Assembly: GCA_030068145.1 (NCBI GenBank) | Contig: JAPJBO010000008.1 | Span: 620,001-684,000, forward strand | Origin: Diplonema papillatum | Lineage: Eukaryota > Euglenozoa > Diplonemea > Diplonemida > Diplonemidae | DNA length: 64,000 nucleotides | Direction of reading: 5' to 3' | In this document: positions 2,821-57,917 of the stretch, piece by piece | Layout of the letters: each line of letters starts with the position of its first letter | Numbering within the stretch: position 1 is the stretch's first letter | Notes under the pieces: generated by a model | The model's database searches: none | What the model was told of the DNA's origin: nothing | Seen by the model: only the letters and a program-made list of their open reading frames with translations | Position numbers and translations under genes: made by a program

Positions 2821-3010
2821 TACACGGTGAACTCCAGCCTCTGAGCTGGAGTGGATCGGGAGGTCCTAGGAGAGGGTGTGGTCACACCCGCAAAGGGCAT
2901 GTGCCACACCCGCAAAGGGCATGTGCCACACCCGCAAAGGGCATGTGACACCCGCAAAGCGGAGGGGATTTCGGTGGAAATACCTTGGTTCTCATCGGTA
3001 TTCTGGACCG
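2821..3010. repeat. Left terminal inverted repeat
   Basis: The outer part reads TACACGGTGAACTCCAGCCT, followed by three near-identical subterminal units at 2883-2946 and a unique inner part ending near the words CTCATCGGTATTCTGGACC. The same blocks occur in reverse order and strand at 8685-8876. Confidence 0.8.
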
Positions 3011-3460
3011 GCCTTGTTTCTTTTGGAATGCAACATGTTCCTTTTGAACCTCAACCCCCTCTGGATTATGTTTGTTGATTGAATTACCTCAGAATACGAC
3101 TCCCAGTGCCCTTCTCTCATGGGGTTGGGCCAGCTTCGCTTGTTACTGGGGCCATGGTTTTGTATTGGGGTTTTTTGCTGTGTCTACCTTTTCTTGATTG
3201 TTAGACTCTATGTAGTGCAACAGCAGTGAATCGGAACTTGACAGATCGTGGGGTTCCACCGTTATCCACCGTTGTGTGGACCCCCAAACTGCAGACTGTA
3301 GGGGATTTCTTGTGGCGGCGGTCTGGATTTTGCGTCAGCAGGTGGACAACAACAAGGAGAAAAAGAACTCGAGAACAACCGGCGATAAAACAAACATAGC
3401 ATAACTTTGTGGGAACTTACAAAGGAAGGAAGGACAGATCAAGTCTTCGATCAGAGCAAG
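3011..3460. other. Non-coding interior of TIR element
   Basis: About 450 bp between the left TIR and the stop of the transposase gene, probably its 3' untranslated region. I see no further ORF or repeat here. Confidence 0.3.
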
Positions 3461-5434
3461 TTATGTCATGTGCTGGCGGATGTGCCGTGTCCACGCACCC
3501 TTTGATCCAAGCTTTCTCCAGCACAGCTTGCATCGAAGAGGCTCATCGAAGAGAGCAGGATGCTTTTTTTGGACATGCTGACTCATTCCAGCTGCCTTTA
3601 CTTTTACACGACATGCAGGGCATTCAGCCATGCAGTGGCATTGAATGCGGTCGCGATGTGCTGCGTCGATATGGGCAGCCATCGAGGATTCCACAGCTTT
3701 TTTGCCACAAAAGTCGCACGGCAAATATGTTTCCGTTTCTTCTTCCTCTTCCTCTTCCTCTTCGTCTTCTTCTTCGTCTTCGTCTTCTTCGTCTTCGTCT
3801 TCTTCGTCGTCTGCTTTCTCCTCACACTCCTCTGCTGCATCGCTATCACCCGCTTCCTCCAATTCCTTCTGAGCTCTCTGCACGAGGTTCTTGGTGAGGT
3901 TCTTGTCTGGCACAAACAGCGGCAGTTGTGGGGGGGCTGTCGGCGCCTCGCAGTTGCACACACGAATCGTTCCAGTTCCACCCGCAAACCGGAACGCCGT
4001 ATAGGGCCCCCCACGAAAGACGAAGTTGGTTTTCATTGCGGCAAGCTGCTCACAAAGAACGATAAGGGCTAGATTGCTACGCGCATTGCGGTGCAGGCAA
4101 TCGCAAATCAAAACTGTTTGTTTTCCGCGAAAGCCTGTCTGGGACAGATCCGCAACCTTCCACGGAAGTCGGCGGGCTCTCCGTTTTTCCTCCGCGCATG
4201 CCAGATCTACCTCGCAGGTTTTTGGGCTGCTGATCATGGGCACGTCAGCTTTCCGCTCTCCGTTTTCTGCCTCCTCAGCTTCATCCGAACACTGCAATGG
4301 AAGGGCATCCATGCGATCCCACCAATGGCTGAGGCTGTGGCAATACGCATTCGTTGTTGAGCCCTTTCGCACGCTTTCCATGAGGTGGAGGAAGATGTGC
4401 GCAGATAAACGGGCACGCAAAAAGGGGATGCGGGCGGCAGTTTCTTTTTGACCCCAGTAACGCCAGGGTACGTCCGAATACCGGAATTCGGCAAGGTCGC
4501 TTAGGCTGATGAATAGCCAGCGAAATGTTGGTGATAGCTCTCGTTGCGCCATCATGGAGACTACCTTCCTCACGTGCGCTCCGGTAGCATTCTGGCTGAC
4601 ATCGATGTTCAAAGTGCTGCACAGGTCTCGAAGTGCCGACGTACTCTCAGCATCCAGCTCCTTGAACAACGCCAACCCCATACCCTTTATGTCGTGCAGG
4701 GCTGGAGAAACGTAGTGTGCTGATGGTGCCACTGCGCTCAGCAGCGATGTGTAGCCAGCTGCAGCCATTTGGGCAAGGCTGAGGTGAGGAAAGCGATGTA
4801 TGTACATGCTCCATTCGCTTGTTGGAACGGTGCATACTGCGCAGCGGTGGCCTCTTCCACCACACCCGTCAAGCCTCTGCCATCGGTCAAAGTGATCTCC
4901 GGTGATCTTTTCGATCCGAACCCGAGTCACACCGTGGCCGCGAACGATCTTTGCATTGTGAAGGCGCAAAATTGCATGGTTGAGAAACCGGTTCTCGAAA
5001 TGCTTAAATTGCGCTTTCTTCCGGTCGACGACAGTTACGGACGGGACAAAACCGCCGGTTTCTGGGTATACCAGGGACATCGACAGACGTGTGCGCGCGT
5101 TGCGCGATCTCAGCGAGTTTCTTGCTGTGTACCCGTCGGTATACAGTACGCCAACAAGCGGTACGGAAGACAATCTTGCGGATTCACGCCACCCCTCCTC
5201 TTCCAAGACCTTGAACGCACCTGCTAAGCCCCGTTGCAGTCTCTCCTTTACTCGAGAGCGCGACTCCTTCTCCACTTTTCTGCAGCGCTTCACGGACACC
5301 CCGATACTCATGCTAGTACGCCGCTTGTGCGACTTATTGACAAGGTCTAGCTTTCTCTGGGAGGTCCGTGTTGCATAACGCTCTTCGATGAGAGTTTTGC
5401 CCACTTCTAACACAGCAGCGTTTGCGGATTGCAT
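3461..5434 (-). CDS. Putative DDE-type transposase with C-terminal C2H2 zinc fingers (657 aa)
   Basis: Complete ORF starting at an ATG with an A-rich leader. Seen: a basic N-terminus; LYTDGYTARN with Asp100; KITGDHFDRW with Asp180; a CxxC pair at Cys198/Cys201 (RCAVCTV); ALHDIKGM at His247/Asp248; an acidic run at about 531-568 (encoded by a CTT/TTC tract at 3733-3815); then three zinc-finger-like Cys/His units from about 573 to 654. The order Asp, GD, CxxC, H-D resembles the core layout of RAG1/Transib transposases and is also shared in part by other DDE families; this is a pattern comparison only. The third catalytic acid is not assigned. Lying alone beside the left TIR in an element of matching ends, it is the best candidate for the enzyme that moves the 2821-8876 element. 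No known family could be assigned. Confidence 0.6.
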   Translation of the reverse strand: MQSANAAVLEVGKTLIEERYATRTSQRKLDLVNKSHKRRTSMSIGVSVKRCRKVEKESRSRVKERLQRGLAGAFKVLEEEGWRESARLSSVPLVGVLYTDGYTARNSLRSRNARTRLSMSLVYPETGGFVPSVTVVDRKKAQFKHFENRFLNHAILRLHNAKIVRGHGVTRVRIEKITGDHFDRWQRLDGCGGRGHRCAVCTVPTSEWSMYIHRFPHLSLAQMAAAGYTSLLSAVAPSAHYVSPALHDIKGMGLALFKELDAESTSALRDLCSTLNIDVSQNATGAHVRKVVSMMAQRELSPTFRWLFISLSDLAEFRYSDVPWRYWGQKETAARIPFLRARLSAHIFLHLMESVRKGSTTNAYCHSLSHWWDRMDALPLQCSDEAEEAENGERKADVPMISSPKTCEVDLACAEEKRRARRLPWKVADLSQTGFRGKQTVLICDCLHRNARSNLALIVLCEQLAAMKTNFVFRGGPYTAFRFAGGTGTIRVCNCEAPTAPPQLPLFVPDKNLTKNLVQRAQKELEEAGDSDAAEECEEKADDEEDEDEEDEDEEEDEEEEEEEEETETYLPCDFCGKKAVESSMAAHIDAAHRDRIQCHCMAECPACRVKVKAAGMSQHVQKKHPALFDEPLRCKLCWRKLGSKGAWTRHIRQHMT

Positions 5435-5517
5435 GGTTTAATTATTTGTCTTCCTGTGATGAATGAGTCCTTCGATATCGTCTCTGGGCCCCTTATCCAC
5501 GGACATGGTGTGACCAG

Positions 5518-5710
5518 ATGAATATTGCGGAAGCACTTGATCAGCGCCAGACTAAAAGGAAGCTCGCAGCAGAAAACGGAAAAATAGAGGCCAGAGTGAT
5601 GCTGCCGCCGTTATCTGCGGACCTCCACGGACATGATGACCTGATCAGCGCGGCAGTGAAGGGAAGCTCGCAGAAGAAAACAGAAAAAGAAAGGTCAAAG
5701 TGATGCTGCC
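5518..5710. repeat. Direct repeat, two ~75-bp units
   Basis: Units at about 5535-5604 and 5650-5710 share TGATCAGCGC, GGAAGCTCGCAG, GAAAAC(G/A)GAAAAA and GTGATGCTGCCG. They lie between the transposase start and the broken recombinase, where the 3' end of the nested retroelement should be, so they may be its remnant terminal repeats or part of the host element. Confidence 0.45.
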
Positions 5711-5731
5711 GAACACCGCCGCAGGAGGCCC

Positions 5732-6308
5732 TCACGAGCGGAAATTTACGGGTGACTGGTACGATGAGGCGGTGGGACGCAACACAAGGTTCTGGTCTCG
5801 AGGGCACAACAGGATGTGCTTCGTTTCGAGCCGGATCAGGTCGATCAGTCGAGCCCCGAGACTCCATTGCGTCGCCAGGGCGGCGCGATAGAGCCCGGAC
5901 ATCTCGCGGACCGCTTCCTCCACCTGCTGGTTGCCCACCAATGTGCGAGACGTACGAGCCCTGCGTTCGTACTCTCTTAGCTCGCGGCTCAGAGTTCTTC
6001 GGAACGCAGCCGTCGGGTCGATTGCAAGCATCCGACGATACGTCATGTACTGCCGGGCGGACTGCGTCTGGAGCTCTCCCTTTTCCAGCTTAAGCGGAGC
6101 CACATGAGGAAGATGTGACCAGAGAGGCGAAAGCCTCGCTGCGTGTCTGTACACTGGAGAGCGCAGCTGAGTTCGCATAGCACTGCGAAGCTCTTTCCAG
6201 AACTCTCCGGTGGAGATAAGGTATCTCGTCGGCAGAAATCTGTTCCCGTTTTCGGGAATTTGAAGCTGGGAGTGGAAGCCGGTAGCGGGTCGGAGCAGGT
6301 AGGTTGAG
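5732..6308 (-). pseudogene. Tyrosine recombinase fragment of a YR retroelement
   Basis: Directly follows the gag-like ORF on the minus strand. It aligns by eye with the complete recombinase at 30654-31574: FWKEL here and LWKEL there; KGELQTQSARQYMTYRRM against AGELTAESALQYATYFRM; ATQWSLGARLIDLIR against RFQWSTACRFVDLQR. The first catalytic Arg (in GARLIDL) is present, but the frame ends soon after it, so the Lys, HxxR, His and nucleophilic Tyr are missing. The reverse transcriptase half of the element is also absent. In this copy the recombinase frame is shifted by one base relative to gag. Confidence 0.75.
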
Positions 6309-7289
6309 TCACCCCCTTTTCGCCTTCTTTACACGGTTCTCCTTCTCCACCTCGTTTTTTGGCGACTGCGGGGTCTTTACCTGCAATAAGGCATTCTGGA
6401 GATTGGTGGCCCACCGGTCGTCCATTCCCCCGAACTTCACCTTTCGGGCCCTGCCCTCATAGAGCGAGGAGGACTCGCCGGAGCCACCAGTTCTGAACCG
6501 AAGGCGGTTCGACTCCATCCGGACGATGGTGGCCTGCATGGCCTGAAGCACGGGAGGGTTGTTGTGAGCAACAGGCAGAAGAGCCCACAGAGAGTCGTAA
6601 GACGACCTCAGCTCATGCCGGTACGCCTGCCCCGCCTCGTTCACCTCTAACGCCTCGCCAAACCGACGGGTGAGGTCATTGCGTAGGGAGAGCCGGCCCC
6701 CCGAAGTCTTCAGCAAGGGGGCCCACGTCTGGACTCGTCGCGCGTCTACTTCGGCATTCTCAGCAGCCTCTGCCTCCTGGCGGTCTCGGGCAGCATCTGC
6801 CTTGAGTTTCGACAGCTCAGACTGAGTGCCTGTGAGCTGGTGCAAAAGGAGAGAAAAGGGCGCCTTCCAGGGTCCATCTGGAAGATTCTCCAGGACCGCC
6901 TGTAGGGCTCCGCCCTCGTCCTCATCCTGCCCCGGCTGAGGAAACAGCCTCGGGAACTCGATTGGGCCCTCGAGGTCGTCGGCCATGGCTGCGTGCTTGT
7001 TTCGGTCAGCAAGGCAGCAACAGACTGGACAGCTCCAGTTGTCGTCCTTAATGCTTTCCAAGAAGCTCGCAGCGTCCGGTCCCAACTTCTTGGATACGCA
7101 TCCTGCAGATGCGATGTAACCGCAAGAAGCACACCTCGACGAGGTGTCCGGCCTGTGTGCAATGCTGCACGTCGCGAATATGCATTCGCTCTCCGCTTCA
7201 TCGTAATCCTCCCCGCGGGGGAGTTTCACGACGGGGATAGCACCCCATTCGACTTCTCCCTCGAGGATGTCAGTCCGAGTTAGTGCCAT
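6309..7289 (-). CDS. Gag-like protein of YR retroelement, with N-terminal zinc-binding region (326 aa)
   Basis: ATG at 7289. The N-terminal third has a Cys/His cluster (CIFATC, HRPDTSSRCASC, WSCPVC) of PHD/RING-like spacing. A charged middle part (ELSKLKADAARDRQEAE) may form a coiled coil, and the tail is basic (KKAKRG). It matches the architecture and local motifs of the 304-aa protein at 31620-32534: RRVQTWAPLL against RRVMTWVEGL; PVAHNNPPVLQAMQATIVRME against MPLAYRTPPILQVLHHIMVRLE. Both sit directly after a terminal repeat and directly before a tyrosine recombinase, hence the assignment as structural (gag) protein. A third N-terminal remnant lies at 57605-57684. Confidence 0.7.
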   Translation of the reverse strand: MALTRTDILEGEVEWGAIPVVKLPRGEDYDEAESECIFATCSIAHRPDTSSRCASCGYIASAGCVSKKLGPDAASFLESIKDDNWSCPVCCCLADRNKHAAMADDLEGPIEFPRLFPQPGQDEDEGGALQAVLENLPDGPWKAPFSLLLHQLTGTQSELSKLKADAARDRQEAEAAENAEVDARRVQTWAPLLKTSGGRLSLRNDLTRRFGEALEVNEAGQAYRHELRSSYDSLWALLPVAHNNPPVLQAMQATIVRMESNRLRFRTGGSGESSSLYEGRARKVKFGGMDDRWATNLQNALLQVKTPQSPKNEVEKENRVKKAKRG

Positions 7290-7400
7290 TGTTTTGTTTG
7301 TACGTGCCGGGAGAGGATTAGCCTGTTAGTGAGTGAATATGATCGGTAGGCTAAACTTTTCCAAACACGCTGCCAGCGTTCTCTTTCGTGTTTACAATTA
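7290..7400. repeat. Terminal repeat of YR retroelement, family 1
   Basis: The block TTTGTACGTGCCGGG...GAGGATTAGCCTG...CCAAACACGCTGCCAGCG lies immediately before the gag ATG. Copies occur at 11605-11705 (alone), 49122-49162 (short) and 57685-57800 (again next to a gag start). It is the analogue of the 113-bp repeat that flanks the full-length element at 28734-32662. Confidence 0.7.
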
Positions 7401-7605
7401 ATTGTTATTACGAAAAAAAAAAAAGTGAGCTGGCGGTGGCAGTCCGGCTTCGGTTGGGGCTTCCAATTGCGGCCGCGCCGGGGGAGTGCCGCCTTTGCGG
7501 GCAAAAAAGCACCCCCCATGAGGGGAATCGTCCACGCCGAGAACTGGCGAACAGAAGAGTTCTCAATACGAACTGCGGCCTGGAGGATGCTGAGGACACA
7601 GGACC

Positions 7606-8586
7606 CTACATGTCCTCAATGTCCTCTTCAATCAGCAGTGCCTGCTGTTCTTCCTCCTGGGGATCATTGTCGCCCGTCAGACCCAGCCCCATGATCTGGC
7701 GGTACTGCTCGTCCAGGTCCACGGCCGCCACTCCCTCGCCAGCAAGTGCTGCACCCTGCGCAATGGGGACCTTCACTTGCCACAAGCCAAGGTGGAGCTG
7801 TCTGCAGAGCACTGGCTTCTGGTCGTCAGCGGGCTCGTCGAGGACGTTGGTGGTTGGGTACAGACCCGATGGCACACTGCTGCCCGCGGGGACAACACGT
7901 ACGCACTCGAGAGTGACTGTTGTGCCCACCACCTTGTAATTAACCTGTGTAAACAGGCCTTCGACGAGGGTCACATGGAACCCTTGCTCTTTTGCACCCG
8001 GCGTCGTAATTGGGAAGGCGATGCGTATGGGCTTCGACGGCTCGTCCGCATCCGTGTTCTGGGCCTGCGTAATGGACGACAGAACGGCCAGGAGATCCGC
8101 TCCGCGGAACGTGGGCTTAGTGGCTTGAACCACTTTGTTGTACAGCGCGTGCTTAGCATGTGTCTGCTGTCTCCACGCCGTGATCGGCTTGCTTCTGAGC
8201 GTGACACCAACAACCTTCACATCTTGGACGTTGCGCACTTTGCTTTCAATGCGGTATTGATCCGGAAGGGTTCTCGCCTTCGTCATTGCTGTAACCTCCC
8301 CCGCTGTGAATTTCGGCGGCTTTATGAAGTCGGTGATGACCTGCATCAACAACGGCGACTTTTTGTGGAGTCTTACTCCTGTCACCTCGGAAACGAGCTG
8401 ACGCAGGCTGCTCAACCTTATCGCTGCTCCGACCTTCTTTACGAGGTATGCCTCAATAAAGTTGGAGACAACGTCGGAGGTCGCCGTGTTGTTGGCTTCG
8501 CAGTCGCTGCCATTGTCGCTGCCCTCGATCGTGCGCCTCCGCTTGTTGTCTTCAGGTGTTCGTGGCATACTTGAGGACAGTGGCAT
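7606..8586 (-). CDS. Companion ORF of the TIR element, unknown function (326 aa)
   Basis: Complete ORF, ATG at 8586, only ~290 bp inside the right end of the element. The N-terminus is polar and carries a basic patch (DNKRRRT) that could be a nuclear localisation signal; the middle (residues ~35-110) looks helical and basic; the C-terminus is acidic (EEEQQALLIEEDIEDM). I recognise no domain. It lies outside the nested retroelement, whose terminal repeat ends near 7400, so it belongs to the TIR element or is cargo. Two-gene transposons with a DNA-binding partner protein are known, and that is one possible role. Confidence 0.55.
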   Translation of the reverse strand: MPLSSSMPRTPEDNKRRRTIEGSDNGSDCEANNTATSDVVSNFIEAYLVKKVGAAIRLSSLRQLVSEVTGVRLHKKSPLLMQVITDFIKPPKFTAGEVTAMTKARTLPDQYRIESKVRNVQDVKVVGVTLRSKPITAWRQQTHAKHALYNKVVQATKPTFRGADLLAVLSSITQAQNTDADEPSKPIRIAFPITTPGAKEQGFHVTLVEGLFTQVNYKVVGTTVTLECVRVVPAGSSVPSGLYPTTNVLDEPADDQKPVLCRQLHLGLWQVKVPIAQGAALAGEGVAAVDLDEQYRQIMGLGLTGDNDPQEEEQQALLIEEDIEDM

Positions 8587-8684
8587 CGTTGTGTTTAAGA
8601 GTGTGTGAGTCGCTGGATGATGTTTTCTTGAGGTATCAACGAACAGGTATCTGAGAAATTGGGGGAAAAGGCAAAGTCAGTCCA

Positions 8685-8876
8685 GAATACTGATGAGAAC
8701 ACAGGTATTTACACACGAAAATCCAACTTTCACACCCGCTTTTTGGGTGTGGCACATGCCCTTTGCGGGTGTGGCACATGCCCTTTGCGGGTGTGGCACA
8801 TGTTTGCGGGTGTGGCACATGCCCTTTTCGGACCTCCCGATTTAACTCCATCTCAGAGGCTGGAGTTCACCGTGTA
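8685..8876. repeat. Right terminal inverted repeat
   Basis: Inverted counterpart of 2821-3010. It holds four CACATGCCCTTTGCGGGTGT-type units, one of them shortened, and ends GGAGTTCACCGTGTA. Confidence 0.8.
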
Positions 8877-11381: not shown

Positions 11382-11604
11382 CTGTTTTCGGGTTGATTCC
11401 AGTAGTTGCAAATCCTGGAGGTGGCTTCACGTGCAAAATTGGCAAATTGGCAATCATAGTCAGCAGGTCCTACTACGGCGGTACAGTTTCCTCACACATT
11501 GCATGGGAGCCTGCCATGTCAAGATACTAAACGAAGGTCCTTCGCACACACGTTCGTGTGGCCAAGAAGGTGCACAGCTCTAAAAAGAATAGGCGCGATA
11601 TTTG

Positions 11605-11705
11605 TTTGTACGTGCCGGGGGAGGATTAGCCTGTTGGTGAGTGATAGTGAGTGAGTATGGTGGGATTGGCTAATCATCTCCCAAACACTGCCGTCGCGTT
11701 CTCCA
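11605..11705. repeat. Solo terminal repeat of YR retroelement family 1
   Basis: Same block as 7290-7400 and 57685-57800 without adjacent gag sequence: TTTGTACGTGCCGGGGGAGG, GAGTGAGTATGGTGGG, CTCCCAAACACTGCC. Inside the first intron of the DUF2804-like gene. Confidence 0.6.
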
Positions 11706-12243: not shown

Positions 12244-13480
12244 GTTGCTGTTTCTTTCCTTGGTCAACCGGCCTTCTTCGACTGCGTAACGGTCCTTCTC
12301 TCTTGTATATCTGACGATGAACGTCAGTCGGGTTTTGTTTGTTTTGTTTTCTTGTTCTTCTAGGCAAGAAGATGGTACAAGGTTTGGTGCTGGGCTGTGT
12401 ATCCTACTTTTCCTCTTGGTTGTGTTTTTTTTGTTTTGCCTGAATGTGGAGAGAATTGTGGGTTTTATGCGAGGTGCTAGAAGAAAAGCTGAGTTTTCAG
12501 GGGCTGTGTTGTCGACGTGGCGTTTCATCATCCATTTTCAGAACCGGTGCAATCGGAGGCTAGACACAAAGCGGGGTGACCCGACTCATGGACTTGCCGC
12601 AACCACACCCCAACTCATGGACTTGCCACTACCATCCTATTCTTGGCCTCGTGACGACCACATGGACGCTAACTTTTGGCAGTGCAGAGGGACCCGCATT
12701 TCAAGTAACGGTAGCCTTTGACAAAGCAAGCATTCCCCTGTGATACCTGCATTTCACAGTTCACACTGCATGATTCAGTAGTTTCCGGACGGTGGGCTTG
12801 GTTTGGGGTGTCCAGTGCTGCCAACCCTTCGTTTTTTCTCACGAACAGGGGTCGGTCCTGCTTTTGTAAGTTCTCCCGACTCCCCAATTCGTGGTTAGCA
12901 CAAACTCAAGACATCTATCCCCTGCAGGAATAGCATACTTTCAGAAAAAGAAGCAGAAGGGAAGCGCTGAAGCTGGAACGGGGGGGGGAGCGGGACGAGA
13001 TGAGCAAGGAGAGGGGGAGAGAGAGAGAGAGAGGGGGGGGAGAGTCCGGTGACAAGGAAGAGGGAGGAACTGCCTGGACGTTCCGTTCGTTCATACTGCA
13101 AAAGAAGACAAAGGGGGCGGGGAGGAGGAGGTGTGCTGCAATCACACGAATGCGCCGCGGAGAGACAAAAGGAATTGGCCCCAAAAAGGTTCGACTGCTG
13201 GCTGCCCCCTGGTCCCATGAAAAACGCCAACATTCCCCACCCGTCCCGGCTCGAGAGAATCGAGGACTCCACAGACACAGCCCTCACGACGCGATTCGAC
13301 AGTGCACTGTGTAGACAGAGGGAACACATCAAGATGCACTGTGAAGACACTCTGAGCGATTTGCACGTCAACACCGCAACGGACCTCCATCAGGGTTTCC
13401 CCTGGCTTCGTCCTATCCAGGCATACTTCACCATCTTTCGGTCCCAACAAGTGTACTTAACCTCAAATAACACGTCAAGA
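12244..13480. other. No gene seen
   Basis: AT-rich 5' side of the DUF2804-like gene, then a purine tract (GA-rich, about 12985-13040) and unremarkable sequence. Its open frames look like chance. Any promoter of the DUF2804-like gene would be near 12250-12400, but no motif is clear. Confidence 0.3.
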
Positions 13481-16609: not shown

Positions 16610-17125
16610 TGACCTTGCGGATATACTCGAGGGACTACCTTGTGCTCATTTCGAAGGAGGCTAGAGGGGGAGAAAACAATACAACTACAAAGTGGGTCTT
16701 TTTTGTTGAACGCTTATGCCTGCCACTAAACCCAGATTCACCTGTGTTCGTGTGGGCTACAGCACATTTACCTCGTTTGATCTTGGAATATTGTTGCGAT
16801 AGTGGGGAGTCATCGGCATGCCGATGAGTACCACACTATTTACCTTTCCTTTGATCTTGCGCAACTGGCGGTCTCCTCAAGCATTTCCTACAAAGCGGGT
16901 ACTTATACAAAAATACTCGAGGGACTGCCTTGTGCTCATTTCAAAGGAGGCTGGAGGGGGAGAAAACGATATAACTACAAAGTGGGTATTTTTTGTTGAA
17001 CGCTTACGCCCGCCACTAAACCCAGATTTACCTGTGTTTCGTGTGGGCTACAGCACATTTACCTCCTTTGATCTATCGCAACTGGCAGTCTCCTCAAGCA
17101 TTTCCTACAAAGCAGGTACTTTTGT
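16610..17125. repeat. Dispersed ~210-bp repeat, two tandem copies
   Basis: Unit: ATACTCGAGGGACTGCCTTG ... AAGGAGGCTAGAGGGGGAGA ... TTTTTTGTTGAACGCTTACG ... CCACTAAACCCAGATT ... GTGTGGGCTACAGCACATTT ... CTCCTCAAGCATTTCCTACA. Further copies: 18090-18195, 22750-22810, 52400-52612, 55275-55375, 56250-56467, 56475-56690, 61495-61620. No coding signal. Confidence 0.8.
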
Positions 17126-17127
17126 TT

Positions 17128-17222
17128 GTGCGATTTTGATTTGGTTAACCCGCTGCCAACGTTCTTTTTAGCTGTAACAAATACTGTCTCCAGGGAAGCA
17201 GAAATTGGTTATCGCAAAAAAG
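17128..17222. repeat. Solo copy of YR retroelement terminal repeat, family 2
   Basis: Same sequence as the direct repeats at 28734-28846 and 32550-32662 (CCGCTGCCAACGTTCTTTTT, TACTGTCTCCAGGGAAGCAG), without internal genes. Confidence 0.75.
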
Positions 17223-19808: not shown

Positions 19809-20790
<982 letters not shown>

Positions 20791-25818: not shown

Positions 25819-25825
25819 CTCCACG

Positions 25826-26712
25826 CAGTGTGGCTCCTGCGCCAGCTGCGCCAGGCCGCGCCAGAAAACCCTGTTTTCTGGCGCGTTTGGCGCGCCCTTA
25901 GTGGTTTCACCAGGAATTGACAACTTTTTCATTTTGGGTTCATCATTCGTCCGTTTTCTCGGCGATCCCGGCGTGCGTTCCGACAAATCTTTTGTTCGAT
26001 GAGAAGATCGATGACGAAATCTTCCAGAGAACCTGTTCTCAGAGGGTGTCAACCTATTCTGGTGCCTTCCCACACCCCCTGTCCTTCCAGAGCCACTGGA
26101 AAACAAGCTTTTTCCAGGGGATCGATCCCTGCAAGCAGCCTTTTTGGACCGGTTTGGACGTGTTCGCCATGGTAATCCATGGTAGCCTGCGGCAATGCAA
26201 GGTCGACGAACCACAGGGATCGGGGTCTATTTGGCACCGTTCTCTTCATCCGAGAAAAAATCGAGCAAAAAGTCGTCGGGAAAAAGTTGCTACGTGGACC
26301 AGCGGGAAATTGTCACCTACCTGGGGACGATTCCTGTCCTTCCCGTGGTAAACCTGCCGCCCGGTGCTCTGCATCACGAACCACACACACACGTATGGGT
26401 CCCCGAGTCTATTTTGAACCGTTCTCTTCATCGGAGCTGAGGGCGAGCAAAACGTCGTTGAAACAGATCTGTTACGTGGACCAGCGCGAAAATATCACCA
26501 CAACTTTTGCCAAAACCAGATTCCACTGTTTGTGCATTGCAAAATGGCTCGGGAAAATTATCAATTCCCCCGAGGCACTCTTTTTGCCCCGTGCATGTGA
26601 CGAGGGAGCCTAAATTTCCTTGGGGCTACAGCGTGCGCCAAACGCGCCAGGTTTGGCGCGCTTGGCGCGCGCCGCGCCACACCAAACGCGCCATGCGCCA
26701 GGAGCCACACTG
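25826..26712. mobile_element. Non-autonomous TIR element, copy 1 (887 bp, 7-bp TSD)
   Basis: Ends CAGTGTGGCTCCTGCGCCA and its inverse. Exact 7-bp target duplication CTCCACG at 25819-25825 and 26713-26719. GC-rich palindromic words (TTTGGCGCGCC, GCGCGTTTGGCG) lie just inside each end. The middle carries a ~183-bp direct repeat (26213-26330 and 26396-26510). No intact transposase. The CAGTG terminus is hAT-like, but a 7-bp duplication is short for hAT (8 bp). Inserted into the methyltransferase-like pseudogene. Confidence 0.85.
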
Positions 26713-28733: not shown

Positions 28734-28846
28734 TTTTTGTTTGTGCGATTTAACCTACGTGTGTTCTGGTTAAACCGCTGCCAACGTTCTTTTTAGCTGT
28801 AACAAATACTGTCTCCAGGGAAGCAGAAATTGGTTGTCGCATAAAA
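28734..28846. repeat. Downstream direct repeat of YR retroelement (family 2)
   Basis: 113 bp, same orientation and almost identical to 32550-32662. For a minus-strand element this is the 3' end. Confidence 0.85.
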
Positions 28847-29061
28847 GAACAGGCACCGGAGCACGAGCGGCCCCTATTCGGACCCCCCCTCCCCCCTCCT
28901 TCTCACCACCGTAAGCGACAGATAACCCGGGATGGGACCGGGCGGAAACTAAGCAAAAAAGCGGCTGATCGCCTGATATGATGAATTGCATGCCACACGG
29001 AGGAAAAACCAACCGACCCACTTGACGAGGACTCGACGAAGCGGGAAGTCGATGTTGGGCG

Positions 29062-30732
29062 CTAACATTGCGGACGATTCAGTCTTGTGTACTGATCCGC
29101 GATGTTCTGGAGCGACGGAACGTAGCTGATGTTCAGCCGGCTCCTGGATGAGGCCAAGCTCTTGTTGATCAGAGTTAGCAGCTGCATCGCATCCTGACGA
29201 AGCGTGTAGCCGCGGCGTACGCAGCCTATCACCGCCTTGTTGTCACAAAGCAGGTTGATGTCCATGCTCGACTGGGCGTGGACCGCGTGCTCTACGGCCC
29301 GAACGACGGCGTATAGCTCCTTCATGAAGATGTCCGCGTGGAGCAACTCCGAAGGAAAGCCCCCATAGACATGGAACCCGTCTGCCACGAATGCCCATGC
29401 CGACATGCTGGCGTCGGAGACGACATCAATCGAACGAGTGTAAACCGGTCTGCACCATTGCCGCCAGGCGTTACCCCGCATGTCGGAGCACTGGGCAGCG
29501 AGGCAGCTCTTGACCGCAGCTGGGCAAGGCGCGACGGAGTCCCAGAACGCGCTGTCGGTAGACGCGCGGCCGGAGGCCAGGGCGGACATCCAATGCAAGA
29601 GGGGAAGCACCTCGTGGAGAGGGTACCCCATCACGTGGCGACGCCAGAGCAGAGACCCGGTCAGTTTCCACCACACGCGGACGGGAGCCGCACTGAACTC
29701 CAGGATCTGGCCCATTACCGGTCCGGCCTTCATCGTCCAGGCTGGGTCCACGCGCCATCTCTTCGCTGCGAGGTCGAGATCCAGTCCCAGCAGCACCGCG
29801 CGGGTAGAAGGCTTGGACCAGCTCCCGATGGTCAAGCCGTACTTCGAAGTCAAAGCCTTGAAGCGAGCCGAGGCTTCCATAACTTCGGCCTCAGTGTCCG
29901 CCACGAAGATCACGTTGTCGATCCACGCGAGGACCTCAACGTCAACACCCTGGGCGGCGGCAACCGCAAGCTCCAGCGAGACCGCCTGGGCCGCCTGAGG
30001 CGCGGCACGGTAGCCCATCGGCAGGCGCGTCATCCACATCAGCCTGCCCTCAACACGGAAACAGAAATACTTCCTGACCTCTGGAGGCAGCGCAAACTGG
30101 AAGAAAAAGGAGCGGAAGTCGAACTCAGCCACCCACTTGCGGGACAGCACCGTAGTCACGATGGTGGCGTAGCTGGGCAGGTCGCAGGGGGGCAGAGGCA
30201 CGTGTGCCGTAGCCCGGTTGATGGATTCGCAGCTGAGGATGAAGCGCAGCTGACCGGGGGCCCGTTTGTCCACCGTAAACGCGCCGTGGAACCAGCGGGA
30301 AGACGCCGCTTTAGGGACCGGTGCAGCGACGTCCAACTCAAGCAAGCGATCGACGTGCGGCATCATTCGGGAGTTGCGGGGCCCCGGGCCGGATACGAAC
30401 GAGCCCGGCTTCAGCATGGTGGCGATAAACGCGGCGTCGAGGACCCACCTCATGTTGCTGCGGAGGCTGGGGAAATCCTGCAGAAGCGCTTCGTGATTGA
30501 ACGGCGGGGCGGTCGCAGCGATCTCTCCGTCATACGAGGCCTTCGTGACCCGTTTCCCGCTACTCGCGTCTAGCCAGCCGTTGGCGTAGTCATACCCCTG
30601 CAGGATCTTGTCGAGATGACGCGGCCACAGCGATTGTTTGGCGGGGCCGCTGTTCACCCAGTCCTTTGCAAGGCAGCTGTGCCCGGGGCTGAGAGCAGGA
30701 CCGGCTGCCAAAGGTGATGCGGAGTGTATAAG
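29062..30732 (-). CDS. Reverse transcriptase-RNase H of YR retroelement
   Basis: RT core: WFHGAFTVDKRAPGQLRFIL, then WVAEFDFRSFFFQFALP (first catalytic Asp), then RLPMGYRAAPQAAQ, then VLAWIDNVIFVADT. The last block stands where YxDD is expected, so the second Asp reads as Asn (29913-29928). RNase H follows with DVVSDASMSAWAFV (Asp), FMKELYAVVRAVEHA (Glu), NLLCDNKAVIG (Asp) and NIADQYTRLN (Asp). The frame is open far upstream, overlapping the recombinase in the -1 frame; I place the start near the region where protein-like sequence begins (PALSPGHSCLAKDW). No methylase-like domain of the DIRS type is visible after RNase H. Confidence 0.85.
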   Translation of the reverse strand, partial: LIHSASPLAAGPALSPGHSCLAKDWVNSGPAKQSLWPRHLDKILQGYDYANGWLDASSGKRVTKASYDGEIAATAPPFNHEALLQDFPSLRSNMRWVLDAAFIATMLKPGSFVSGPGPRNSRMMPHVDRLLELDVAAPVPKAASSRWFHGAFTVDKRAPGQLRFILSCESINRATAHVPLPPCDLPSYATIVTTVLSRKWVAEFDFRSFFFQFALPPEVRKYFCFRVEGRLMWMTRLPMGYRAAPQAAQAVSLELAVAAAQGVDVEVLAWIDNVIFVADTEAEVMEASARFKALTSKYGLTIGSWSKPSTRAVLLGLDLDLAAKRWRVDPAWTMKAGPVMGQILEFSAAPVRVWWKLTGSLLWRRHVMGYPLHEVLPLLHWMSALASGRASTDSAFWDSVAPCPAAVKSCLAAQCSDMRGNAWRQWCRPVYTRSIDVVSDASMSAWAFVADGFHVYGGFPSELLHADIFMKELYAVVRAVEHAVHAQSSMDINLLCDNKAVIGCVRRGYTLRQDAMQLLTLINKSLASSRSRLNISYVPSLQNIADQYTRLNRPQC

Positions 30733-31574
30733 CGCGTCGTCCTGGGATTCAGGTGTCGCCCCACGTTCATCGCCGTCTGCTCGCCCTCCAGGAGGGCCAC
30801 CCAGCTCAGCGCGGCATGTCTGATGCGGTGCGACGACACCCCCAGCTCCTCTTGTAGGAGACTGTTGTAGGCCTGTAGTGACAGGTTGGGGAACAGGGGC
30901 GCCTTGGTGCCCAGGGCCGGCCGATGGATCGTGATCCATTCCCAGAAAGGCGTCAGAAAAGGACCGCTTCGCGGTAGCAAGAGACCCTGGCCTCTTGAGG
31001 TAGGGTCGGTCTTCCCGCCGACGAACAGGATCATGACCTGTCCTGTGTCCACCGACCACATGTGGTCCAGCCGAATCCGCTGCAGATCCACGAACCTGCA
31101 AGCCGTCGACCACTGGAACCGGAGGGCCATGGCGTGCAAGGACGAGCCTCGTGAGACTACCAACTGTATCGCCGCCTTGGTCGGAGTCCGTCCGGCGTCG
31201 CGGGTGCGTCGGCCCTCGAACTGTTCCATGGTCAGCTTGACCGAACGGCGATAAGCACCCATCCAGTCCACCCGGGACATCCTGAAGTACGTTGCGTACT
31301 GGAGGGCAGATTCGGCAGTGAGCTCGCCGGCCATCATCTTCCGGTTCACCCACATGAGGAAAGCCTCCTCGTCGGACAATGCGGGGTAAAACCGGCGGGC
31401 CTCCACTGCGTACCTCTGAGCACGGCTCACCACCGACAGCATAGCAGGGGTGCTCTTGTAGCACTTCTGCAACGCGAGGAGTAGTGACTCCTGGTCCGTC
31501 CGGAACCGATCTTGATCGGGGCACGCGGAGTCCTTTTTCCGAGGTCGTGACCTCGCTGCCAACTCCTTCCACAA
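30654..31574 (-). CDS. Tyrosine recombinase of YR retroelement (306 aa)
   Basis: All six catalytic positions of the family are visible: Arg160 (STACRFVDLQ), Lys188 (VGGKTDP), His249-x-x-Arg252 (SSHRIRHAAL), His274 (VGRHLNP) and Tyr283 (TTRLYTPHH). It would integrate a circular DNA copy of the element. The frame is the same as gag and follows it after one TGA (31620-31622); the first codon given is TTG, and the first ATG is 45 codons in, so gag-stop readthrough or reinitiation is more likely than independent initiation. Its last ~25 codons overlap the reverse transcriptase frame (-1). Confidence 0.88.
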   Translation of the reverse strand: MWKELAARSRPRKKDSACPDQDRFRTDQESLLLALQKCYKSTPAMLSVVSRAQRYAVEARRFYPALSDEEAFLMWVNRKMMAGELTAESALQYATYFRMSRVDWMGAYRRSVKLTMEQFEGRRTRDAGRTPTKAAIQLVVSRGSSLHAMALRFQWSTACRFVDLQRIRLDHMWSVDTGQVMILFVGGKTDPTSRGQGLLLPRSGPFLTPFWEWITIHRPALGTKAPLFPNLSLQAYNSLLQEELGVSSHRIRHAALSWVALLEGEQTAMNVGRHLNPRTTRLYTPHHLWQPVLLSAPGTAALQRTG

Positions 31575-31619
31575 ACCCTCCGAAGGCAGGCCGGTGGGAA
31601 CAGAAGCGCTCGCCGCAAT

Positions 31620-32534
31620 TCACTTCCGCGGCCTCTTCGAGGGGTGCTCCCTCCTTTCGTCCCTCTGGTCCGCCTTTTTTGAGAGGTCGGCCATGGACTT
31701 TTGCGCCTGGACCAGAGCCGACTTCGTGAAGTCGGTGTAGTCCAAAGACCCGAACCGGGTCTCCCACGCAATCTGGAATTCGATCCCGTTCGCATGCAAG
31801 CACTTCAGCCGCAGGGCCTCCAGGCGGACCATGATGTGATGGAGCACCTGGAGGATGGGCGGGGTCCGGTACGCCAACGGCATCAGGGCGATAAGAGTGA
31901 CGAAGTGGGTCCGGCGCTCGTGGTCGACCACGCTCCCCGCGTCGTGGGGGTTCTCGGGAACCAAATGGTAGGCGTATCTGCCTTTTATTTCGGACAGGAT
32001 GACTTGGCGCCCCGGAGCCGTCGCCAACCCCTCCACCCAAGTCATGACTCGGCGTGGGTCCACCGCCTCGGTCATGACCGGTGCGGCCTGCGCAGCCATC
32101 GGGAGGCTTTGGAAGGCAGATTGGGCGAACAAAGCGAGGAGAGCGGTCTTGACCGGGCCCTCCTCAACGGCAGCGAGCAATGGCTCTTGAGCCAAGCTCG
32201 GCGGAGCGTCGTGCTCTTGAGCACGAGCGATCCGGACGCGGAACTCTTCTTGAAGAGTGGTGCCAGCCTGGTGCACCGCCACTATGCAGGCGGGGCAAAC
32301 CCACCCGTCCGCCGCTAAGTGGTCTACGAACAGGGGCGCGACTTCCCTTGGGAGCGCCGCTTTGAGGCAGGTGGCCAGACCCCGTTTCCCGCATCGGGCA
32401 CAGAACGCCCCCGCGGTGTGGATCTTTCCACAATCGACACAGCAGTCGACGTCTTCCTCCGCGGCCTCCCACTCGTCGGGGGCGCGGACAACCTGGATCG
32501 GGGACCAATCCACGGCCTTGAACTCACAAGCCAT
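31620..32534 (-). CDS. Gag-like protein of YR retroelement (304 aa)
   Basis: ATG at 32534, just 15 bp from the upstream direct repeat. N-terminal zinc-binding pattern (CCVDCGKIH, FCARCGKRG, WVCPACIVAVH), central LPMAAQ/RRVMTWVEGL region, and a basic tail ending in KRPRK before TGA. Homologous to 6309-7289. It should package the element RNA in the cytoplasm. The Cys/His cluster at the N-terminus, rather than a C-terminal CCHC knuckle, is unusual among gag proteins I know. Confidence 0.75.
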   Translation of the reverse strand: MACEFKAVDWSPIQVVRAPDEWEAAEEDVDCCVDCGKIHTAGAFCARCGKRGLATCLKAALPREVAPLFVDHLAADGWVCPACIVAVHQAGTTLQEEFRVRIARAQEHDAPPSLAQEPLLAAVEEGPVKTALLALFAQSAFQSLPMAAQAAPVMTEAVDPRRVMTWVEGLATAPGRQVILSEIKGRYAYHLVPENPHDAGSVVDHERRTHFVTLIALMPLAYRTPPILQVLHHIMVRLEALRLKCLHANGIEFQIAWETRFGSLDYTDFTKSALVQAQKSMADLSKKADQRDERREHPSKRPRK

Positions 32535-32549
32535 AGCACGAGCAATTAT

Positions 32550-32662
32550 TTTTTGTTTGTGCGATTTAACCTACGTGTGTTCTGGTTAAACCGCTGCCAA
32601 CGTTCTTTTTAGCTGTAACAAATACTGTCTCCAGGGAAGCAGAAATTGGTTGTCGCAAAAAA
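32550..32662. repeat. Upstream direct repeat of YR retroelement (family 2)
   Basis: 113-bp repeat, mate of 28734-28846; expected to hold the promoter of the minus-strand transcript. Solo copy at 17128-17222. Confidence 0.85.
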
Positions 32663-32959
32663 GCGTTGGTTTTCACTGGCCCTGGAAGGACAGGGGGTGT
32701 GGGAGGGCACCAGAATAGGTTGACACCCTCTGAGAACAGGTTTTCTGGAAGATTTCGTCATCTTTCTTCTCACCGGATCAAAGACTTGTCGGAACGCACG
32801 CCGGGATCGCCGAGAAAATGGACGAATGATGATCCCAAAGTGAAGAATTTGTCAATTCCTGGTGAAAACACTGAGGGCGCGCCAATCGCGCCAAACGCGC
32901 CATACAGGGTTTTCTGGCGCGGCCTGGTGCGGCTGGCGCAGGAGCCACACTGCCCCGCA

Positions 32960-57604: not shown

Positions 57605-57800
57605 CACTTATCGGCATGCTGATAGACTGTGCCCCAGTTGACTTCATCCTCGAGAATATCAGTCCGAGTAATTCCAACCATTTTTGTTTGAACGTGCCGG
57701 GGGAGGATTAGCCTGCTAGTGAATGACAGTGAATGAATGTGTTCGTTAGGCTAATCTTCTCCCAAACACGCTGCCAGCGTTCTCTTTCGTGTTTACAACG
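57605..57800 (-). pseudogene. YR retroelement 5' remnant: gag start plus terminal repeat (family 1)
   Basis: Minus strand: terminal repeat at 57685-57800, then an ATG at about 57684 reading MVGITRTDILEDEVNWGTV, close to MALTRTDILEGEVEWGAI of 6309-7289. The gag frame ends after ~25 codons at a TAA near 57605. Shows that this terminal repeat belongs directly before gag. Confidence 0.7.
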
Positions 57801-57917
57801 CATAGTTTCTACGAAATAAATGGCGGACCTCGACGGGGACATTCGAATGGAAGTGCTCTCGCAAGAACGAGACCGTGGCAATGGCCTGTGGCAAGGTACC
57901 CGACGATCCGGCCATGC

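Follow-up and report, generated by a model that had tools for sequence, protein, structure and literature searches.

In most Ngaro, DIRS1 and PAT-like elements the tyrosine recombinase (YR) gene comes last, and in VIPER (Trypanosoma cruzi, Crithidia, Bodo) and TATE (Leishmania braziliensis, Bodo and others) the order is gag, YR and then reverse transcriptase–RNase H (RT/RH). To our knowledge the mode of integration of VIPER and TATE has not been shown by experiment, although no search of ours was aimed at this point. DIRS1 is described with inverted repeats and Ngaro and PAT with split direct repeats (PMC4157794); Ribeiro et al. 2019 (PMC6681497) report split repeats of the form A1 ... B1-A2-B2 in the VIPER elements of C. 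fasciculata and T. cruzi and in a single TATE copy from L. braziliensis; Bodo shows other patterns, and those found elsewhere are incomplete. TATE of L. braziliensis is reported to reside in telomeric hexamers (PMC6681497), and VIPER-like elements are characterized as lacking target site duplications (PMC12278014). Here we describe a retroelement with the gag-YR-RT/RH order in a 64,000-nucleotide stretch (the window) of the genome of Diplonema papillatum (assembly GCA_030068145.1, contig JAPJBO010000008.1, positions 620,001 to 684,000), a free-living marine flagellate that hosts many copies of it; the junctions of the copies examined may reflect copying primed by T-tracts at the target. D. papillatum is a diplonemid, and the diplonemids (Euglenozoa) are the sister group of kinetoplastids according to its genome paper (PMC10161547).

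The element spans about 3.9 kb on the minus strand (28734..32663), from a left terminal repeat, A1 (32550..32663), to a right terminal repeat, A2 (28734..28847), with limits given by the direct repeats and by the contiguity of both flanks in a paralogous empty site. Three intact genes lie between the repeats on the same strand in the order gag, YR, RT-RNase H, as an earlier note on this DNA had described. The gag-like open reading frame (ORF; 31620..32534) encodes 304 amino acids with a Cys-rich motif ending in WxCPxC, and the YR ORF (30654..31619; first ATG at 31442) continues in the gag frame after a single TGA. The RT-RNase H coding region (29062..30699) is in the -1 frame relative to YR, a frame that is open from 32163. 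A polypurine run of 22 nt (28883..28904, minus strand) ends 35 nt before A2, and none of 300 shuffles reaches this length (window copy only). Possible recoding sites are the gag stop (TGA, 31622-31620), whose frame is that of YR, and, just before the YR stop and in the YR frame, the heptamer CCCGGGC (30687-30681); in a second family, described below, gag and YR are however in different frames.

Similar copies are numerous. There are at least 81 RT matches in the assembly (271 Mb in 2910 contigs, the count being a lower bound), 44 of them full-length (query covered from residue 1 or 2 to at least 552, by hand count of the table), and 41 of these 44 have no internal stop; the other full copies that the earlier note had proposed to look for are thus present. 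The matches form subfamilies at about 100, 98, 90, 83 and 68% identity, and six full-length copies, including that in the window, are free of stops and 100% identical in RT protein. Flank analyses were performed with the window copy and 20 fetched copies (20 of the other 80 RT matches; referred to by L numbers). All 21 have the order gag, YR, RT, with partial gag genes in L035 and L047, and none is ordered gag-RT-YR, which rules out that the window copy is a rearranged one.

The left ends are constant and coincide with runs of T. At least six T precede GCGACA in all 20 readable copies (exactly T6 in nine, and up to 17), the left end of L047 being absent from the stretch fetched. A2 reads CTTTTATGCGACA (TTTTAT) in 15 of 19 copies and T6 in the other four; in the former 15, A1 always has T6 or longer. 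The pre-insertion sequence was recovered for six copies, and in each there is a T-tract at the insertion point: T5 for the window copy (in two paralogs), T15 for L040 (in the flank of L046), T9 for L041, T7 for L043 and, within tandem arrays, T5 for L032 and T4 for L035. Across the window as a whole, 404 of 128000 positions are the end of a T5. The flanks of the window copy adjoin each other in two paralogous sites that are empty, one in L024 and the other in the window itself (25825..26648, plus strand; a dispersed repeat without the element, with T5 at the insertion point), and its right boundary is exact to about one base. Within the sequences examined, an independent empty site was found for two of the 16 copies tried (the window copy and L040).

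Right ends are variable. In copies that stop within A they fall at A positions 88 to 114, whereas others continue past A into a copy of the leader (+7 in L040, +13 in L019 and L047 at one place, +23 in L038 and +239 nt in L037), and L033 and L048 stop before A2. With the true right ends, the match between the two flanks exceeds all 306 cross-copy controls in three of 18 copies (L041, L043 and L035). Target duplications of 43 nt and 34 nt are present in L041 and L043, respectively; L041 sits among diverged repeats (73–76%), and its 43-nt duplication has one mismatch. The flank repeats of L035 and L032 (529 nt at 95% in L032) lie in tandem arrays and were not counted as target duplications. In L026 and L027 the sequence after A2 resembles the end of the 3' untranslated region (UTR) of another copy, possibly a nested insertion in an older element. 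The junctions lend no support to integration of the YR type, and the position of the copies at T-runs is not readily explained by the element's own recombinase gene.

The terminal repeats of the window copy are 114 bp long (rather than 113 bp, as first described) and near-identical as claimed, with a single mismatch (113/114 identical) at the place where A1 and A2 differ in copies with TTTTAT in A2. A1 begins with C and T6 followed by GCGACAACC..., the T-run probably being target-derived, and A2 begins with CTTTTATGCGACAACC...; a chance origin of the repeat was rejected. The single difference between A1 and A2 in 114 positions and the identical RT protein of six copies point to recent activity, in agreement with the age proposed in the earlier note. 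The split repeats A1 ... B1-A2-B2 anticipated there were not found: comparison of the 300 nt before A2 with the 700 nt after it in 19 copies revealed no B repeat (best match 12 nt, E 0.025), and the right flank of the window copy belongs to its empty site, leaving plain terminal repeats. The core of A (positions 7–108) has on average 0.41 differences within copies (n = 17) versus 2.05 between copies (n = 190 pairs), and the subfamily variants of A are common to A1 and A2 of the same copy. Because the core is homogenized within copies and its variants are shared by both ends, A is probably regenerated from a single template in each cycle, save for the first bases, which appear to derive from the target.

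Near the right end of A1 there is a hairpin with 11-bp arms and a 12-nt spacer (32561..32594, minus strand; z -2.18), repeated in A2 (28745-28778, minus strand), and it precedes most of the right-end stops seen. The second family has a hairpin of different sequence at the same place (z -2.50 to -3.02 in three related, non-independent sequences). A canonical YR core site with inverted arms is disfavoured, as loop length differs between the two families (12 nt in one, more in the other), and a triple 9-mer, GCTCGTGCT, was dropped as a candidate signal, since 102 of 300 shuffles contain such a triple. A solo A repeat (17120..17222, minus strand) matches at 88% over 113 columns.

We favor a reading, with a probability of roughly 0.5, in which the element belongs to a VIPER/TATE-type lineage, copying of a template that is circular or arranged head to tail is primed by a T-tract at the target, and the YR acts elsewhere, perhaps on the repeat. 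Its observed basis, in the copies examined, is the gene order, the near-identical copies, the absence of B repeats, the homogenized A, the left ends on T-tracts, the variable right ends and the occasional duplications; the direction of priming, the nature of the template and the copying steps are inferred. The RT would make a minus-strand template, circular or head-to-tail, with one A per unit, and a target T-tract with a free 3'-OH would base-pair with CTTTTAT, the site at the left boundary of A. Plus-strand copying primed in this way would run through gag, YR, RT and the 3' UTR and then through A again, often halting within about a dozen bases past the hairpin, such that A would come to stand at both ends. 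Copying from the left is suggested because the left ends are constant on T-tracts, the right ends vary and duplications are occasional. The YR would be dispensable for the junctions seen; its role may be in forming or resolving the circle, or in recombination between A repeats. Sharing of A between units joined head to tail could result from such recombination as well as from copying that goes round a circle.

Several points weigh against target-primed copying. The window copy is short of about 8 bp of its empty site rather than flanked by a duplication, 15 of 18 copies are without flank duplication above controls, and L035, one of the three with such a match, is in a tandem array. The solo A no longer has the hairpin (z -0.59). 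No intermediate was observed, priming by the target on a minus-strand template would have to rely on a DNA template or an antisense RNA, and the pairing of T6 with TTTTAT must tolerate one mismatch. Were the RNA to extend from A1 to A2 and the repeat not be regenerated, the T6 of A1 could simply be inherited; the homogenized core of A speaks against this.

An element that moves as is supposed for standard VIPER and Ngaro would integrate as a circle by YR crossover, creating split repeats A1 ... B1-A2-B2 without target duplication. The complete YR, with its six catalytic residues and Cre-like predicted fold, and a gene order equal to that of VIPER and TATE are in keeping with this, and the T-rich likeness of the left edge of A to the targets could represent a crossover core; however, a one-A circle opened at a T core would leave no full A at the right end, and the junctions of 20 copies, with B absent in the 19 tested, variable right ends and two target duplications, speak against it, such that we consider crossover of this kind unlikely. 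Equally improbable is mobilization of the element RNA by host long interspersed nuclear element (LINE) machinery, through target-primed reverse transcription at T-tracts with target duplications. LINE-1, SLACS, R2 and jockey-like genes are on record for the D. papillatum genome (PMC10161547), and both the T-tracts and the 34- and 43-nt duplications are as such machinery would produce, yet the constant end facing the T-tract is the sense 5' end, which would require antisense RNA, and the homogenized A cores are left unexplained.

The element could also behave like a long terminal repeat (LTR) retrotransposon, with A as a short LTR and a linear cDNA joined by host end joining to breaks in T-rich DNA. 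The presence of A at both ends, homogenized within copies, the polypurine run that the window copy has ahead of A2 and the deletion or duplication of targets are all consistent with this. We nonetheless regard it as doubtful: the left edge of A1 should then be a copy of A2, yet A1 has at least T6 in every one of the 15 copies in which A2 reads TTTTAT; the right ends of L037, L038, L040 and L047 extend beyond A into the leader; and by eye no TGG-type primer site was seen after A1.

The YR is a tyrosine recombinase as judged by its R-K-H-R-H-Y set and its Cre/Xer-like predicted fold. All six catalytic residues (R160, K188, H249, R252, H274 and Y283) are present, as previously claimed, and are invariant across five aligned sequences. 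The assignment was decided by a search with the predicted fold, which matches Xer, Cre and lambda-type recombinases; the YR profile compared with the PDB by sequence matched no recombinase and gave weak matches only, e.g. Rap1. The RT matches Pfam RVT_1 (E 2.7e-8), there is no methyltransferase among the Pfam hits of the element, and D429, E461, D486 and D535, which we take to be the catalytic acids of RNase H, are present, consistent with the earlier description. A structure model of the RT had a predicted local distance difference test (pLDDT) score of 45 and was left unused.

RT motif C is not of the xxDD type. The window element has WIDN, and the relatives P0005–P0010 and L001 have IDN (8/8 sequences reaching the motif), with Asn in place of the second Asp of YxDD; no paper with a YXDN motif was present among the literature matches listed. 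The D211N mutant of the Ty1 RT has the same substitution; the mutant retains polymerization in vitro at a much lower rate, and transposition is abolished, with RNase H suppressors bringing back 5–10% (PMC2148107). Unlike in that mutant, Asn is the natural residue in the RT of the Diplonema element, at a position for which Asp is considered necessary.

Gene order and published descriptions are the grounds for kinship with VIPER and TATE, and membership of the VIPER-like group is unproven. The element shares its gene order (gag, YR, RT/RH) with both VIPER and TATE, and with VIPER also the use of separate frames for YR and RT, overlapping or adjacent to each other. It differs from VIPER, compared by description only, in its diplonemid host, the lack of B repeats, the T-tract targets and the two copies with target duplications (L041 and L043), a feature VIPER-like elements are said to lack, and from L. 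braziliensis TATE in its location at dispersed T-tracts. The Gag has CX2CX3H and the WxCPxC end (translation read by eye) rather than the CH-box CX2CX4HX4C, which is not universal in VIPER-like elements. RT/RH and YR without a DDE integrase are shared with Ngaro, DIRS1 and PAT-like elements, but the YR is in the middle rather than last, and the terminal direct repeats are plain; with repeats of at least 20 nt considered, only two weak inverted pairs in the coding part were found, in place of DIRS-like inverted terminal repeats or an internal complementary region. Terminal direct repeats, of 159 bp, are also reported for the ALOG-containing DIRS1-like element of Ectocarpus, whose order (Gag, RT+RNase H, methylase, YR) and size (slightly above 9 kb) differ from those of the Diplonema element (PMC3537659).

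The closest relatives in protein searches are themselves D. papillatum proteins, P0001 for the YR (99%) and P0006 for the RT (98% across 85% of the query). In P0007, part of the YR is joined to the RT within one record. The YR-middle order is, by profile comparison, also kept in the distant relative P0009 (RT 41% identical), where a YR gene is hidden in the +1 frame of the first 335 residues, upstream of the RT. Its gapped profile score is 60.5, whereas shuffled sequences reach at most 14.5 (60 shuffles) and 15.6 (200 shuffles), and neither the other frame nor any of three decoys gives a signal; an ungapped version of the test gave a weak signal. In the second of two genome-contig scans we found L001 (contig JAUYOG010000072.1 of a Ramlibacter metagenome-assembled genome), in which a single ORF has a weak match to YR and, after it, RT/RH; this is probably a contaminating protist sequence in the bacterial assembly. 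Upstream of this ORF lies a further one, and the contig also has a pair of 115-bp repeats, separated by 6.7 kb, and another pair of 118 bp. The other genome-contig scan, and those of viral contigs and phages, yielded no relative.

The window also contains part of another family of this kind, the second family, which is only distantly related (5736-7427, minus strand), with an A-like leader, an intact gag ORF (6309..7289; 27% identity to the element gag over 322 columns) and the truncated 5' half of a YR gene (5736..6308), after which no RT match follows; further leader fragments are at 57625-57820 and 11601-11703. These genes lie within a stretch of roughly 6 kb (2821-8876) between inverted repeats (pieces of 77–97%, with 22-bp units) that includes a 658-amino acid ORF with C2H2 fingers (5437-3461) and a 356-amino acid ORF (8676-7606), and which looks like a DNA transposon containing the second-family fragment. 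Elsewhere, there is a 74-nt fragment of eukaryotic large subunit rRNA (13345-13418), about 3600 such 28S pieces being reported in the genome paper (PMC10161547), and a 415-bp TC dinucleotide array (19810-20224).

TATE-like ORFs in D. papillatum are already in print, among the more than 60 ORFs resembling DNA transposons counted in its genome (PMC10161547). The main text of that paper, in the part available, does not contain the terms 'VIPER', 'DIRS' or 'tyrosine recombinase', and no description of a gag-YR-RT/RH element in diplonemids was found in the titles and abstracts of the papers listed in literature searches. The earlier note had proposed that a VIPER-like order outside kinetoplastids would widen the group. 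The order is indeed present there, in recent and unrearranged copies, but as diplonemids are sister to kinetoplastids the widening amounts to one step within Euglenozoa and does not reach across eukaryotes. This suggests that the YR-middle order predates the diplonemid/kinetoplastid split, unless it was transferred.

The dozens of full copies provide junctions, empty sites and target duplications, which makes the question of VIPER/TATE-type integration testable. Put in its strongest form, which we hold tentatively, this would be a retrotransposon that enters the genome without its recombinase: a poly-T target would prime copying of a one-repeat circle and a hairpin would stop it, the terminal repeats would be a re-copied stretch and neither LTRs nor split repeats, and the RT would work with a natural Asn in motif C. 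If this is true, and if kinetoplastid VIPER and TATE behave likewise, the integration model of the group must be rewritten.

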